From contig JAKFVU010000002.1 in the NCBI GenBank assembly GCA_021732025.1, positions 62,001 to 126,000 of the forward strand: DNA of 64,000 nucleotides. The letters run 5' to 3'. This DNA comes from Candidatus Obscuribacterales bacterium. Lineage in GTDB: Bacteria > Cyanobacteriota > Vampirovibrionia > Obscuribacterales > Obscuribacteraceae. The notes under the pieces were generated by a model, which was not told where the DNA came from, did not search any database, and saw only the letters and a program-made list of their open reading frames with translations. Below are positions 9,670 through 16,396 of the stretch, piece by piece (position 1 is the stretch's first letter; each line of letters starts with the position of its first letter). Position numbers and translations under genes: made by a program.

Positions 9670-12600
9670 TTAGTGGAAGTTTCGAGACGGTAAATAAACG
9701 CCATCCAATAACTCTGGTAGTGTTTCAAAATGCCTGGCAATAACATTGCAGACACCTTGATCTAATTGCAATAAACCATAAACAGCAATAAGCGATCCGG
9801 TATTTACCAGCTCTCGATATACCTCAAATAGTTTTGGTTTGATAATGACATTGGCCATGCCGGTTTCGTCTTCAAGAGTAAGAAAGACAAAGCCTTTAGC
9901 TGTCTCTGGGCGCTGCCGACAAATGATACCGCCAGCTACAATGACATCATCACCGTCTTCTTGATTGTATAAACCAAGACAAGAATGAATTTTACGCGAC
10001 TTCGCCCAGTCTCGATAAAATGTCATTGGATGTTTATTGGTTGACAAATTCATCGTGCGATAATCTGCCACCACTTCCTCTAACTCTGACATTGGCGGCA
10101 GCACAACCGGCAGTTCATATAGACAATCAATCTCAGTATTTTCGATGTCATTATCATTAGCAATTAAGGCTTCAAGCAATGGCATTGCTCTCTTGGGCCG
10201 CAAGAGAGATAAGACGCGCCATAGAGCTTGTCTGCGTCCGGGGCAAAGAGTTTCAAAAGCACCAGCCTTAGCCAACATCTTCAAATCACTAGGAGTCAGT
10301 CCGCTACGTGATACCACGTCTTCTACAGAAGTGAATAAGCCTTTCTCTAGAGCAATGGCAAGAGCAGCCTGGCTAGTTGGCCCCAAGCCTTCGACAAAGC
10401 GTAAACCTAAACGTACAGCAAAACCGTAAGAATGTGTAGACTCAAGAGTCTCAAGAGGTTCAAGAGCCTCAAGAGTACAGTTCCACAAACTGTGTGCCAA
10501 ATCTACTGGCCGCACTTCTACGTCATGCCTGATAGCATCGCGAATCAACGAAGCTGGACTATAGAAGCCCATAGGTTGGGAATTAAGAATGGCGCAGCAA
10601 AACTCGACCGGATAGTAACGCTTCAAGTAAGCCGAAGCATAAACAAGCAATGAAAAGGAAGCGGCATGACTCTCAGGAAAACCGTAGTTTGCAAAAGCCT
10701 GCAGCTGATGAGTAATAGTCTCAATGGCTATTTCAGTAAAACCATTCTTCTTCATACCAATGGCTAAGTCACCACAGAGCTTTGCCATTTTCTCTTTGGA
10801 GCGTTTATGGCTCATCACTTTGCGCAACTGGTCAGCTTGCGAAGCCGTAAAACCAGCCGCCGTCACTGCCAATTTCATGCCTTGCTCTTGAAATAGCGGC
10901 ACACCAAGGGTGCGTTTGAGAATTGGCTCTAGACTTGGATGAAGATAAATCACTTCTTCCTCGCCCCGTCGTCTTCTTAAATACGGATGAATAATATTTC
11001 CTTGAATTGGTCCAGGACGAACAATAGCGATAGAAACAATAATATCGTAGAAACAAACGGGCTTAAGCTTGGGCAAAATATTCATTTGTGCCCGCGACTC
11101 TACTTGAAAGACTCCGACAGTGTCTGCCTTCTGCAACATCTGATAAATCTGTTCATCAGCCATATCAAGGCGTCCGATATCAATATTGATACCGCGGTGC
11201 TGGTTAACTAACTTCAATCCTTCTTGAATCATTGTCAGCATACCAAGGCCGAGTAAATCGATTTTGATTAATCCGACCAAATCAATATCATCTTTGTCCC
11301 ATTGAATCACTGTGCGCTTCTCCATAGCGGCACACTCAACTGGCACAATTTCACCAATGGGCTGACCAGATAAAACAAAGCCACCGACGTGAATAGAGCG
11401 GTGTCTAGGCAATTGATGAAGCCCGGCAATTACCTTAATCAGCATCTTCACTCGATGATCGTTCAAATCGAAACCAAGTCGGTCGAGACCACCATTGGCA
11501 AGTTTAAGAGCGGCATCATAGGCTTCACTATGACTGGCCTCACGCGATAGTAAGTCGGCTTGTTCTTGGGAGAAACCAAGCACACGAGCAGCATCACGTG
11601 TGGCGGAGCGGCCGCGATAAGTAATCACTTCACAGACCATAGCAGCATGTGCACGGCCATATTTCTCATAGACATATTGCAGAACCTGCTCTCTTTCTTG
11701 GTGAGCAATATCTAAATCAATGTCTGGTGGTTCATGGCGACCTTCAGAGAGAAATCTCTCAAAAAGTAAATCCATACCAATAGGGTCGACAGCTGTAATC
11801 ATCAGGCAATAGCAAACAGCCGAATTAGCAGCGGAGCCACGCCCCTGAACGGCAATACCCTTAGAGCGGGCAAAGCGAACAATGTCCCACATGATCAAAA
11901 AATAGGGGGCAAGCTTGAGTTTATTGATCAAACTCAGCTCATGATCAATTTGTTTACGATGTTGTTCGCTTATATCAACATAGCGCTTCTCAGCCCCAGA
12001 CCAGACTAACTGCTCTAATAAGCCCGGATAAGTAACCATTGTCGGGAGAAGCTCACCAGCAGACTCAATTTGCACAACATCAGATTTTTTATCGCTAGAA
12101 GAAGAAGAAGAAGAAGCTGTAATTCCACAATACTGGGCAACCTCTTCACTACAAGTAAATGACGGCAATGGCGGCTCTAGCCAACCAAGGCGAAACTGAC
12201 AGCGCTCTGAAATAGCTAGTGTATTCTTGATGCCAACGAGATTATCACGCCACAGATGAGTCATCTCTTCAGCCGATTTCATATACCAACTGCCATTTGG
12301 ACGCAGCCGTCTACCGGCATTTGCTAGTGTCACTTTATGCTTCAAGCAAGTAAGCACATCGTGCACAATGCGCTTCTCGCTGGTGGCATAATGAACATTA
12401 TTAGTGACTACCCAACTCACTCCAGTTGAGCTAGCCATCTCAATAATCTGACGAACTAACATGGCTTCTTGGGTAATAAAATGATTGCCAACTTCTAAAT
12501 AGAAGTCAGCTCCAAAAACTTCAACAAAACGCTTCAACAGCCTTCGTGCCGACATTGTGTCGTCACGTGCCAAAGCAGTAGGTATGGCCCCATGGTGACA

Positions 12601-12972
12601 ACCAGAAAGGGCAGTTAATCCACCAGCCCGGGCAAATAACTGATCATAAGTAATACGCGGGCTGCCACGCTCGCGTTCTAAACGGGCAAGTGTAACTAAT
12701 GCACAAAGATTGCGGTAGCCTGCTAGATCTTGCACCAAAACAATCAAGTGCGAATCATCTTCGAGGGTAAGCTCAGCACCAATGATGCCGTCAATAGACA
12801 GTTCCCGTGCGGCATGGGCAAAACGAGGAATGCCCCCCAAATCATCGTGGTCAGTAATTGCCAGAGCTGCTAAACCCAAGTCTTTTGCTCTGGCAACTAA
12901 TTCTTCTGGATTAGACGCACCGTCTAAGAAGGAGAAACCAGAATGACAATGGAGTTCGGCGTATCTGAACAA
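9670..12972 (-). CDS. dnaE2: Error-prone DNA polymerase DnaE2/ImuC
   Basis: 1100 aa; PHP domain YAELHCHSGFSFLDGAS...ITDHDDLGG; GRGSAANSAVCYCL; PDIDLDIAHQERE; located directly downstream of imuB. Confidence 0.95.
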   Translation of the reverse strand: MFRYAELHCHSGFSFLDGASNPEELVARAKDLGLAALAITDHDDLGGIPRFAHAARELSIDGIIGAELTLEDDSHLIVLVQDLAGYRNLCALVTLARLERERGSPRITYDQLFARAGGLTALSGCHHGAIPTALARDDTMSARRLLKRFVEVFGADFYLEVGNHFITQEAMLVRQIIEMASSTGVSWVVTNNVHYATSEKRIVHDVLTCLKHKVTLANAGRRLRPNGSWYMKSAEEMTHLWRDNLVGIKNTLAISERCQFRLGWLEPPLPSFTCSEEVAQYCGITASSSSSSSDKKSDVVQIESAGELLPTMVTYPGLLEQLVWSGAEKRYVDISEQHRKQIDHELSLINKLKLAPYFLIMWDIVRFARSKGIAVQGRGSAANSAVCYCLMITAVDPIGMDLLFERFLSEGRHEPPDIDLDIAHQEREQVLQYVYEKYGRAHAAMVCEVITYRGRSATRDAARVLGFSQEQADLLSREASHSEAYDAALKLANGGLDRLGFDLNDHRVKMLIKVIAGLHQLPRHRSIHVGGFVLSGQPIGEIVPVECAAMEKRTVIQWDKDDIDLVGLIKIDLLGLGMLTMIQEGLKLVNQHRGINIDIGRLDMADEQIYQMLQKADTVGVFQVESRAQMNILPKLKPVCFYDIIVSIAIVRPGPIQGNIIHPYLRRRRGEEEVIYLHPSLEPILKRTLGVPLFQEQGMKLAVTAAGFTASQADQLRKVMSHKRSKEKMAKLCGDLAIGMKKNGFTEIAIETITHQLQAFANYGFPESHAASFSLLVYASAYLKRYYPVEFCCAILNSQPMGFYSPASLIRDAIRHDVEVRPVDLAHSLWNCTLEALEPLETLESTHSYGFAVRLGLRFVEGLGPTSQAALAIALEKGLFTSVEDVVSRSGLTPSDLKMLAKAGAFETLCPGRRQALWRVLSLLRPKRAMPLLEALIANDNDIENTEIDCLYELPVVLPPMSELEEVVADYRTMNLSTNKHPMTFYRDWAKSRKIHSCLGLYNQEDGDDVIVAGGIICRQRPETAKGFVFLTLEDETGMANVIIKPKLFEVYRELVNTGSLIAVYGLLQLDQGVCNVIARHFETLPELLDGVYLPSRNFH
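10441..10476. repeat. 4x 9-bp tandem repeat (CTCAAGAGN) within dnaE2
   Basis: ctcaagagt ctcaagagg ttcaagagc ctcaagagt; encodes TLEALEPLETLE. Confidence 0.85.
12098..12115. repeat. (GAA)6 trinucleotide repeat within dnaE2 (poly-Ser on coding strand)
   Basis: gaagaagaagaagaagaa; codes for the Ser run in ITASSSSSSSDKK. Confidence 0.9.
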
Positions 12973-13002: not shown

Positions 13003-14766
13003 TTAGTCAAACACTCCTTCCACAAACCAACCTCTTTCTTGATGATCGTAGACTAGCAAAACGGTCATCAGAGCAGGCAAAATTGAACGAATACCACTCT
13101 TTACACCAGCTCTTGAAAGCATTGCCATTTCAGGCTTCTTCTCAATCAAAGCGACATAATATGATTTGCGAACAGGTTTTTCCCACCACATTCCTGAGAT
13201 CTTTTCAGGAGTAGTTATTTGATTAACGTGATACCAGTGTCCCCGATAAGTTATGGCAGCAGGTCGGAAAGGAGTATATTTATCTACTTCAGAGCTAGAC
13301 TCGCTCTTCTCTTTAAATTGAACAAATACTGGCATGGCCGGCATGTGACGCTTAAGAACCAATCCTGGCATCAAGCAGTCCTTTCTAGTTTTGTGTTTAG
13401 TAGTTTTCAGAACAGCGTGATTTACAAAAACCTCATTTACAGGAGTACAGGAACTAAAATTAGAACTTGAATTAGACTGTTGCCCAAATCCGACAACCGG
13501 AATCCAAACACCAGCCAATTCAGGTAAATACTGGTCATTTAGAACAGGCTTAACAAGAGCTTCTTCACCGAGTCGAGTGATAAAACGCTGCAACAGTAAC
13601 AATACAGGCTCAGAGCTATCATCGAGTTCGTCATCACCGGAGAGGAGCAACTCTTCTCTGGAAAAGTTTGAATTATCAGATTGGGCAATAGTTGCTTTAG
13701 TCTGTTCAAAATACTCTTTTGAAAATCTTGAAACGGCAAGATTTATTGCCGTGAACTCGCGAGTCAATTGTTTGGATTCAAGCGAAAGCCTTAATACATC
13801 TAACAAAAACTTACTGTTACTAGAGGAACGAATAAGCTTGATGGTTCGTTCATCAAATTTATCGTTATCATTAAAGAAGCAGACAGTAAGCTCGTCAGCA
13901 CAAAGGCCATCAATCTGTAAATCACGAGTCAAGCGCTCTAACATTGTTTTAAAAATGAACAATGTATCGCGCAATGACTCTGTTGCCGAGCCGATATCAA
14001 TAGTGCATTGATACTGTTTCTCTTGAACCGGCAAGGCTGGTTGAGTATTATCTCGACCACAGGCCAGCTCATAAGCATGCAATACGCTATTATCGAAACG
14101 ACCAATATAAGATGAGATTGGCACCTCCGTGAACTGACCAATGGTCCTAATACCTAACTCTTTTAAATTTCCCTTCGCCTCTTCCTCGACGGGCAGGAAG
14201 TCGATGGATAGAGGCGAAAGGAAAACTGTATCGCAGTCTGGGGTAACGATATACCAGCGCTTCGTCTTTGAACGACTGGCTACCCTTGCTGCAAAAGCGC
14301 TATCAGCGAGGCCAATATGACCGTCGACAAAACCGTAACGACTAGCCAACTTAAGTACATCTCGGCAAAGCTTATTTTCGCCGCCCAGGCGATTAAATCC
14401 TTCAGCGTCAATGTAGAAAAGTCCTGATTCACGAGTGCTAACACGTGGAGACGCGGCAATGAGTTCTCTTGCCAATTTCTTTTGCGCACTCTTGTAAAAC
14501 TTGTCATCGTACTCTCTCCAAACTAAGTGAGAACAAATTGCCCTTGCTTCAGTGAACGTCATGCCCGGATAAATATTGGCGCGCTCAGCTTCTCTCGAGC
14601 AAACTTGAACTTTTGCCCGACCAATACTGCTAGAAAACTGCAACGATTGATTTTGATTTTTCGAATTAGCGAGTAGAACTAAAGGTTTGCCTTTAAGCTC
14701 GGGCTCGAGTTTTTGATGTACTGCGATCTGGAACTTGGGGATGCGTAAACAAGCGATTCTGCACAT
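13003..14766 (-). CDS. imuB: ImuB, Y-family polymerase-like mutasome protein
   Basis: CRIACLRIPKFQIAVHQKLE...RAKVQVCSREAERANIYPGMTFTEARAIC; FYIDAEGFNRLGG; DNA-pol-IV-like C-terminal region; between imuA and dnaE2. Track start 14805; internal ATG 14766 looks more ImuB-like. Confidence 0.88.
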   Translation of the reverse strand: MCRIACLRIPKFQIAVHQKLEPELKGKPLVLLANSKNQNQSLQFSSSIGRAKVQVCSREAERANIYPGMTFTEARAICSHLVWREYDDKFYKSAQKKLARELIAASPRVSTRESGLFYIDAEGFNRLGGENKLCRDVLKLASRYGFVDGHIGLADSAFAARVASRSKTKRWYIVTPDCDTVFLSPLSIDFLPVEEEAKGNLKELGIRTIGQFTEVPISSYIGRFDNSVLHAYELACGRDNTQPALPVQEKQYQCTIDIGSATESLRDTLFIFKTMLERLTRDLQIDGLCADELTVCFFNDNDKFDERTIKLIRSSSNSKFLLDVLRLSLESKQLTREFTAINLAVSRFSKEYFEQTKATIAQSDNSNFSREELLLSGDDELDDSSEPVLLLLQRFITRLGEEALVKPVLNDQYLPELAGVWIPVVGFGQQSNSSSNFSSCTPVNEVFVNHAVLKTTKHKTRKDCLMPGLVLKRHMPAMPVFVQFKEKSESSSEVDKYTPFRPAAITYRGHWYHVNQITTPEKISGMWWEKPVRKSYYVALIEKKPEMAMLSRAGVKSGIRSILPALMTVLLVYDHQERGWFVEGVFD

Positions 14767-15490
14767 ATGAAGCCACAGATACCTCAATATTTTCAGCCAT
14801 ACCATCCCTCAAAATCGAACCATTGATAGTCGGCATAATGGTGGCAATGTCATCACTATGACCAGTTAAACCAAGTTCGAAATGTACAGGCTTAGAGAAA
14901 TTGAAACTCAATCTTGAATTTGTACCCCAGCTTGCCGATTGAGCAGAGGAATCATCATCTTTAAGCACTATTAGTGTGGCTTTCGATCGCTCTAAAGCCC
15001 TTTGCAATCTTGCATAAAAGTTGCTAGTTATGATGTTCCTCTCGCCCAAATCAAGAATGACCACATCAAAGACACGTGAACGAATCAATTGCTCGCATGC
15101 CCAGAGTGAATCTTTCAAATAGTCTCGCTTAATGGTTGAGTCGATATTACTTCTTAGAACCCAGAATCTACCTTGCTTTTCGTCTTTTGCATTATTCAAA
15201 AAGCACCAATCAGAGGCCAGTAATCTGTCAAAGGTATCTATATAAACTACATTCAAACCAGTGGCACACCAATTAGCGCAAATTGAGCGCAAAACTGTTG
15301 TTTTTCCGGAAGAAGATGCACCAACCCATTCAGTAACACGACGCTTAAGAAGACCAGCCGAACGACCAAAGTCAATCTGCTCTACACCGGTTTTTAGTGA
15401 GCGACCAACCTCACCTCCAGATAGCCACTTCCCGGGGAACAGATGTTCCAGCTCTTTCTTCAAATTAGCGACAGTAACTGCACCAACCAT
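14693..15490 (-). CDS. imuA: ImuA, RecA-like mutasome protein
   Basis: Walker-A-like GASSSGKTT, FSKPVHFELGLTGH; first gene of the imuA-imuB-dnaE2 run; SD AAGGAGG upstream. Confidence 0.85.
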   Translation of the reverse strand: MVGAVTVANLKKELEHLFPGKWLSGGEVGRSLKTGVEQIDFGRSAGLLKRRVTEWVGASSSGKTTVLRSICANWCATGLNVVYIDTFDRLLASDWCFLNNAKDEKQGRFWVLRSNIDSTIKRDYLKDSLWACEQLIRSRVFDVVILDLGERNIITSNFYARLQRALERSKATLIVLKDDDSSAQSASWGTNSRLSFNFSKPVHFELGLTGHSDDIATIMPTINGSILRDGMAENIEVSVASYVQNRLFTHPQVPDRSTSKTRARA

Positions 15491-15542
15491 AAGCGCTACG
15501 GCGGCCTCCTTTCTGTATTCAATTTCATTTCCCCGATGCAGT

Positions 15543-15572
15543 TATTAAACCATACGCTCGTATGGTAGTCAA
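15543..15572 (-). promoter_or_regulatory. Candidate imuA promoter with palindromic operator in the spacer
   Basis: Minus strand: TTGACT - ACCATACG AG CGTATGGT (18 nt) - TTAATA; palindrome occupies 15549-15566. Start codon of imuA at 15490. Confidence 0.6.
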
Positions 15573-15683
15573 CCTTTTTCTTTGCCCTCGTATGGTACCG
15601 CCCCGATATTTCATATACACAAGCGGGCGCGGCGATACATATTATCGCCCGTCTCTATATACCGACGCCAATCTTGTATGGTA
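15558..15683. repeat. Three copies of 11-mer CTYGTATGGTA (15558-15568, 15588-15598, 15673-15683)
   Basis: CTCGTATGGTA, CTCGTATGGTA (30 bp apart start to start) and CTTGTATGGTA, same orientation, upstream of imuA. Confidence 0.7.
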
Positions 15684-15859
15684 TCGAACATTGATTCCTT
15701 CTTTTATATACAAGAAAGGAGAATGGCAATTAATTTAGTTATCGCTAGATTGTCTTTGGGCAATCACCAATAAGGAGAGTTCATATCTAAAATTCGAAAA
15801 TTGAACACATATCTCATTTGGTAAAATACAATGACTGATTGCTGCCCGAGGATTCCCCG

Positions 15860-16396
15860 TTGATTAGCCAAACCACTGAATATGCCTTACGTGCTGTGGT
15901 GTTTTTGGCAATAAGCGACGGGCAAGCACACACCACCGCTCAGATTGCCGATGGCACAAAGGTACCCACAGCCTATTTATCTAAAGTACTGCAGTCATTA
16001 AGCCGTGCGGGCTTAGTATCATCTCAACGTGGTCTAGGCGGCGGGTTTACTCTATCTGTAGACCCATCAGAACTTTCCATTTTAGAGATCATCGAGACTG
16101 TTGATCCTATTGCGCGCATTCATTCATGCCCCCTCGGTATGGCTGAGCATGGTGGTGCGCTATGTTCTCTGCACAAGCAACTTGATGAAGCACTGGCGCT
16201 TGTCGAGATTTCGTTGAGCAGGTCAAGCATTAAAGACCTAATTGAAGCCCCTGCTAGAGTCGGCCTCTGCACCATGAAGAAAAAAAGACGCAAAGCAATT
16301 GCCAAAGGTTCAAAGGCAAGTGCCAAGGCAATAGATAAAGCCATTGAAAAAGTGAAAGAGAAGCGCACAAGTGAAATTAGCAAAGTTATTTTATAA
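15860..16396 (+). CDS. Rrf2-family transcriptional regulator with Lys/Ala-rich C-terminal extension
   Basis: LISQTTEYALRAVVFLA...TTAQIADGTKVPTAYLSKVLQSLSRAGLVSSQRGLGGGFTL is a classic Rrf2 domain; tail KKKRRKAIAKGSKASAKAIDKAIEKVKEKR. Track start 15839; probable TTG at 15860. Confidence 0.88.
   Translation: MISQTTEYALRAVVFLAISDGQAHTTAQIADGTKVPTAYLSKVLQSLSRAGLVSSQRGLGGGFTLSVDPSELSILEIIETVDPIARIHSCPLGMAEHGGALCSLHKQLDEALALVEISLSRSSIKDLIEAPARVGLCTMKKKRRKAIAKGSKASAKAIDKAIEKVKEKRTSEISKVIL

Follow-up and report, generated by a model that had tools for sequence, protein, structure and literature searches.

The question raised by this locus is which regulator, if any, acts on a perfect palindrome lying inside the promoter of an imuA-imuB-dnaE2 operon of Candidatus Obscuribacterales bacterium. 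The Melainabacteria are the non-photosynthetic sister lineage of the cyanobacteria, and the Obscuribacterales are non-photosynthetic relatives of cyanobacteria. The features of the window (the whole stretch of 64,000 nucleotides analyzed) on which the answer depends are as follows.

9670 to 12972, minus strand: dnaE2 (imuC), error-prone DNA polymerase (NCBIfam PRK05672, 1225 bits, cut-off 939)
13003 to 14805, minus strand: imuB-like gene, Y-family polymerase homologue (Pfam IMS, 57.8 bits), the true start of which may be internal
14693 to 15490, minus strand: imuA-like gene, 265 amino acids, RecA-like ATPase fold, weak RecA match
15505 to 15511, minus strand: AAGGAGG, read directly; taken as the probable ribosome-binding site of imuA, with a gap of 14 nt to the ATG
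15544 to 15549, minus strand: TTTAAT, -10 hexamer in the corrected register, with a 17-nt spacer; its first base is common to the palindrome
15549 to 15566, minus strand: ACCATACGAGCGTATGGT, candidate LexA operator; core CATAC-N4-GTATG at 15551 to 15564, supported by conservation and an unguided scan
15567 to 15572, minus strand: TTGACT, -35 hexamer, read directly
15590 to 15596, minus strand: ACCATAC, an extra half-site 30 bp (about three helical turns) upstream of the operator
15839 to 16396, plus strand: gene of an Rrf2-family regulator, divergent from imuA

The identity of DnaE2 is secure. The imuA-like protein scores only 19.6 bits with the ImuA family model (NCBIfam NF033429), below the cut-off of 150, and its name is therefore based on its position in an operon with imuB and dnaE2 and on its RecA-like fold rather than on a family score. 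Homologues of imuA were found in 35 of 60 relatives, and the closest named ones belong to metagenome-assembled genomes labelled Candidatus Obscuribacter, Obscuribacterales, Melainabacteria, and Cyanobacteriota.

The palindrome is perfect (8+2+8) and lies 58 nt 5' of the imuA ATG at 15490; its exact sequence occurs only once in the window and likewise only once in the 4.6-Mb draft genome (84% complete). Direct reading confirmed the description given in the first-pass annotation of a minus-strand TTGACT (15572 to 15567) followed by a perfect 18-nt palindrome, as well as the presence of the AAGGAGG Shine-Dalgarno sequence (15511 to 15505) ahead of the imuA ATG. The -10 hexamer had been placed at TTAATA, after a spacer of 18 nt; this sequence agrees with TATAAT in no more than 2 of the 6 bases, whereas TTTAAT, after the optimal spacer of 17 nt, agrees with it in 5 of 6, and the latter register, which was chosen by comparison with relatives, recurs in the 11 closest genomes. 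The palindrome, which had been said to fill the spacer exactly, does fill it, but the fit is off by one, the first T of the -10 hexamer being covered as well. A protein bound on the palindrome would cover the core promoter under either -10 register. In nearly all the relatives carrying the core, the box sits between and onto the -35 and -10 hexamers: of the 24 genomes in which the imuA core is exact, 22 have TTGAC 8–9 nt ahead of it, followed, past a spacer of 17 or 18 nt, by a -10-like hexamer. The promoter scan, which demands an A at the second position of the -10 hexamer, did not report the imuA promoter. Since the palindrome is located upstream of the predicted transcription start, its reading as an RNA hairpin was set aside. 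Each of the six genomes of the genus keeps the extra CATAC half-site, at -30 or -31 from the operator. The gap of 14 nt between the Shine-Dalgarno sequence and the imuA ATG is unusually long, and a conserved GTAGCGC/TAGCGC element lies within it (window positions 15491 to 15504; same place in L020-L028).

Conservation upstream of imuA orthologues, the lack of which the annotation had named as counting against its reading, was found: with at most 1 mismatch in 10 positions, which is the threshold used throughout for the core, CATAC-N4-GTATG precedes imuA in 25 of the 29 relatives (shuffles 0.17), one of these 29 regions being only 3 bases long and related genomes being non-independent samples in this as in all the conservation counts below. 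The core is exact in 24 of the 25 matching regions, and its conservation spans about 20 genera. In the more distant genera, the outer bases vary (ACC is replaced by ACA, GCC, or AAC) while CATAC-N4-GTATG stays unchanged, and it is for this reason that the latter is taken to be the core. An unguided palindrome scan, covering 1024 five-base half-sites and 13 spacers (0–12), placed CATAC-N4-GTATG first upstream of imuA (25/28) and tied first with TATAC-N4 upstream of lexA (35/36); upstream of umuD, this palindrome again comes out on top, although read in a shifted frame (CCATA-N6, 13/16; CATAC-N4, 11/16), and no comparable signal was seen for recA. The composite TTGAC-N3-box pattern, with at most one mismatch, was detected in Obscuribacterales genomes and in none of 12 genomes from other orders, and the controls were mostly zero.

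In the genome under study, the box occurs at several DNA-damage genes, namely lexA (GCCATACGTAAGTATAGT), umuDC (ACCATACGTAGATATGGC), and an ssb paralogue (GACATACGTTTGTATGGT), in addition to imuA-imuB-dnaE2. The lexA site lies just upstream of the gene, shows three mismatches to the imuA 18-mer, and belongs to a form, TATAC-TTAC-GTATG, which is nearly fixed in the order (TATACTTACGTATG in this genome). The core was found upstream of lexA in 35 of the 36 members of the order examined (shuffles 0.28), the sole exception (G010) keeping 8 of the 10 core positions, and the lexA box overlaps a -10-like sequence. Upstream of umuD, where the boxes are degenerate (CATAY-N4-RTATG), the core was found in 11 of 16 cases (shuffles 0.11), the other five falling below the threshold. 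The -35 hexamer (TTGACA) of the ssb paralogue (G000:C9:23492-23941) overlaps a perfect CATACGTTTGTATG box, which is kept in all five genomes of the genus where the gene was found with its start (L249-L253). A dnaE2 or imuB gene that stands apart from imuA carries a box of its own (L144, L146, L239, L232). The imuA-imuB-dnaE2 cassette again emerges as a core SOS target. With one mismatch allowed, the core occurs at 64 sites in this genome versus 48 for the reversed pattern, which is barely an enrichment, and lone one-mismatch sites away from known SOS genes are therefore mostly due to chance. When up to three mismatches to the 18-mer were allowed in this genome, the sites at lexA, umuD, and ssb were the only further ones that fitted; the remaining hits were discarded, most of them being intragenic and chance-like.

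Two readings that leave SOS regulation aside can be weighed against this distribution. The first is that the palindrome arose by chance in the promoter spacer and binds no regulator: by our own estimate, perfect 8+2+8 palindromes occur by chance in tens in a genome of this size, but the conservation over about 20 genera and the recurrence at SOS genes, as compared with about 0.2 in shuffles, refute this reading and leave its probability negligible. The second is that another repressor, unrelated to SOS, binds the palindrome, for example the divergent Rrf2-family regulator encoded next door, the gene of which lies across the same intergenic region from imuA in this genome and in the five others of its genus. 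Most relatives nevertheless keep the imuA box while no Rrf2 gene was detected in the stretch examined around imuA, and the boxes at lexA and umuDC have a common SOS function and no Rrf2 neighbor, so that regulation by another repressor of this kind seems very unlikely. The Rrf2-family protein was accordingly rejected as the regulator. The Rrf2 gene adjoins imuA only in this genus, and lies further off in G030.

The regulation by LexA which these boxes suggest does not involve any of the known operators that we compared. Seven LexA boxes, namely GAAC-N4-GTTC, GTAC-N4-GTAC, RGTACNNNDGTWCB, CTGT-N8-ACAG, GTTC-N7-GTTC, TTAC-N3-GTAA, and GGTT-N10-AACC, were found to be absent from all the imuA (28), lexA (36), and umuD (16) upstream regions examined, which agrees with the earlier remark that the site matches no known LexA box. 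The known boxes were therefore rejected as the identity of the palindrome, and there is strong support for the proposal of an SOS box specific to the lineage, since the core is present at imuA and lexA in the proportions given above and also at umuDC, dnaE2, imuB, and ssb.

The LexA protein itself was then considered as the possible partner of the box. The genome encodes a single LexA with a DNA-binding domain (TIGR00498, 172 bits, cut-off 111). It is an ordinary LexA consisting of an N-terminal winged helix and an S24 domain, and in its alignment with E. coli LexA (7b5g) the AAG at the cleavage site is kept, as are both catalytic residues, Ser and Lys. In E. coli LexA, the residues contacting the DNA are S39, N41, A42, E44, and E45 (PMC3091678); the residues aligned with them differ in the present protein. 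NRMT occurs in the recognition helix of all the LexA proteins examined in the order, mostly in the form [KR]NRMT[VI]xQH, and this motif is absent from the LexA proteins of three other families of the class, in which the helix differs. Judging from these sequence comparisons, the imuA palindrome is almost certainly a LexA binding site, and LexA is very probably the cognate repressor of the box, which would be an operator specific to the Obscuribacterales with CATAC-N4-GTATG as its core.

A second LexA-like or phage-type repressor might act at the imuA and umuD boxes, with the TIGR00498 LexA binding only TATACTTACGTATG at lexA. The site forms do differ (TATAC-TTAC-GTATG at lexA, CATAC-N4-GTATG at imuA, and CATAY-N4-RTATG at umuD), and extra short LexA-like matches are present in some genomes. 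The half-site and the spacing are the same in all the classes of sites, however, and one-base differences are normal within a regulon; in the genome under study, moreover, the only other S24 match is UmuD, which is followed by UmuC, and only one LexA has a DNA-binding domain. We hold this division of labor between two repressors to be highly improbable.

With LexA as the repressor, binding, repression by binding, and induction by damage are taken from the established biology of the SOS response. In the undamaged cell, a LexA dimer placed over the -35 and -10 hexamers would keep RNA polymerase off the imuA-imuB-dnaE2 promoter. Upon DNA damage, RecA filaments would stimulate the self-cleavage of LexA at its Ala-Gly bond, the operator would be freed, and the mutagenic translesion-synthesis cassette would be made. 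The same box would control lexA, providing feedback, umuDC and, in this genus, the ssb paralogue. In G001 and G005 (L187, L189), the lexA promoter has a second core (CATAGTAGGGTATG), placed upstream of the main core at a distance of 20 bp, or two helical turns, and a weaker second copy of the box is present at lexA in G000 and G004. That such phased extra sites (the imuA half-site and the tandem lexA cores) could aid cooperative binding is a guess.

The gene recA is a usual, though not required, target of LexA in the SOS response. The first-pass annotation had expected the box at both lexA and recA; this was borne out at lexA, including in the genome under study, but not at recA, where no box was found in any of 22 upstream regions (L100-L126; search over the 450 bp preceding the recA match; shuffles 0.27) and where the unguided scan gave nothing comparable to the CATAC-N4 signal. 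These sequences suggest that recA, the SOS inducer, may be outside the LexA regulon in this order. In several cyanobacteria, LexA boxes are present at only some SOS genes (PMC3091678).

Among the known LexA boxes, that of the cyanobacteria, RGTACNNNDGTWCB / AGTACWNWTGTACT (Nostoc PCC 7120; PMC3091678), shows several resemblances to the present one: both are 14-bp palindromes with a 5+4+5 layout and TAC/GTA at the inner positions, both lie upstream of lexA, umuCD, and ssb, and both go with an S24-type LexA, the binding of which is predicted here. They differ in the second base of the half-site, which is A instead of G (ATAC-N4-GTAT versus GTAC-N4-GTAC), in the outer base, which is C or T, and in that recA appears to be no target here; the cyanobacterial consensus RGTACNNNDGTWCB occurs in none of the imuA, lexA, and umuD upstream regions listed above. 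The Gram-positive (Cheo) box, GAAC-N4-GTTC, has the same half-site length, the same 4-nt spacer, and AC/GT beside the spacer, but the outer part of its half-site is GA instead of AT and it matches in none of the promoters tested. Like the palindrome described here, the E. coli box, CTGT-N8-ACAG, which represses SOS genes, is placed in the core promoter and is served by a homologous repressor, whereas its half-site and spacing differ, as do the contact residues of LexA. The Balneolaeota motif, a direct repeat (TTACACATATTTTWTACATA) validated by EMSA, with recA in its regulon (PMC7739468), is likewise a lineage-specific motif inferred from lexA promoters, in that case in a little-studied phylum, with polymerases and a radical SAM protein among the members of its regulon; the present motif is, in contrast, a palindrome, and no box was found at recA.

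A form closer to the cyanobacterial one is present elsewhere in the same class. The four lexA promoters examined in family f7 (L188, L190, L191, L193) all carry TTTGTAC-N3-TGTACAAG, which by its sequence has the cyanobacterial-type layout (AGTACWNWTGTACT), and the f7 LexA has a different recognition helix, YHNSVQHYL. The cyanobacterial-like box at lexA in f7 agrees with the operator having changed within the class. On balance, we favor the idea that in the Obscuribacterales the operator changed from GTAC-N4-GTAC to ATAC-N4-GTAT along with the new NRMT helix, that the regulon shrank to lexA, the translesion-synthesis genes, and a few others, and that recA went out of LexA control.

Seventeen distinct LexA-binding motifs were counted in a 2021 paper (PMC8565304). 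No SOS operator or LexA box for the Melainabacteria or Obscuribacterales was found in the literature searched, most subscription journals lying outside it. The LexA operator is well known as a kind, and its CATAC-N4-GTATG sequence form appears to be new. The box provides a means of annotating the SOS regulon throughout an order that is known mainly or solely through metagenomes, and a tractable case of a change in both an operator and a recognition helix, the cyanobacterial-like form having been kept in another family of the class.

Some further genes carry the box. Radical SAM genes with a box at or near their start were observed in three genomes belonging to three genera (L212, L218, L234), and these genes are likely SOS members; in Gram-positive bacteria and Balneolaeota, the listed members of the SOS regulon include this class (PMC7739468). 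In family f2, which belongs to the same order (Obscuribacterales), a well-conserved box of the ACCATACTCAAATATGGT type lies 24 nt ahead of the start of a gene for a 138-aa protein without Pfam matches in all three genomes (L229, L209, L243); this gene is a candidate new member of the SOS regulon.
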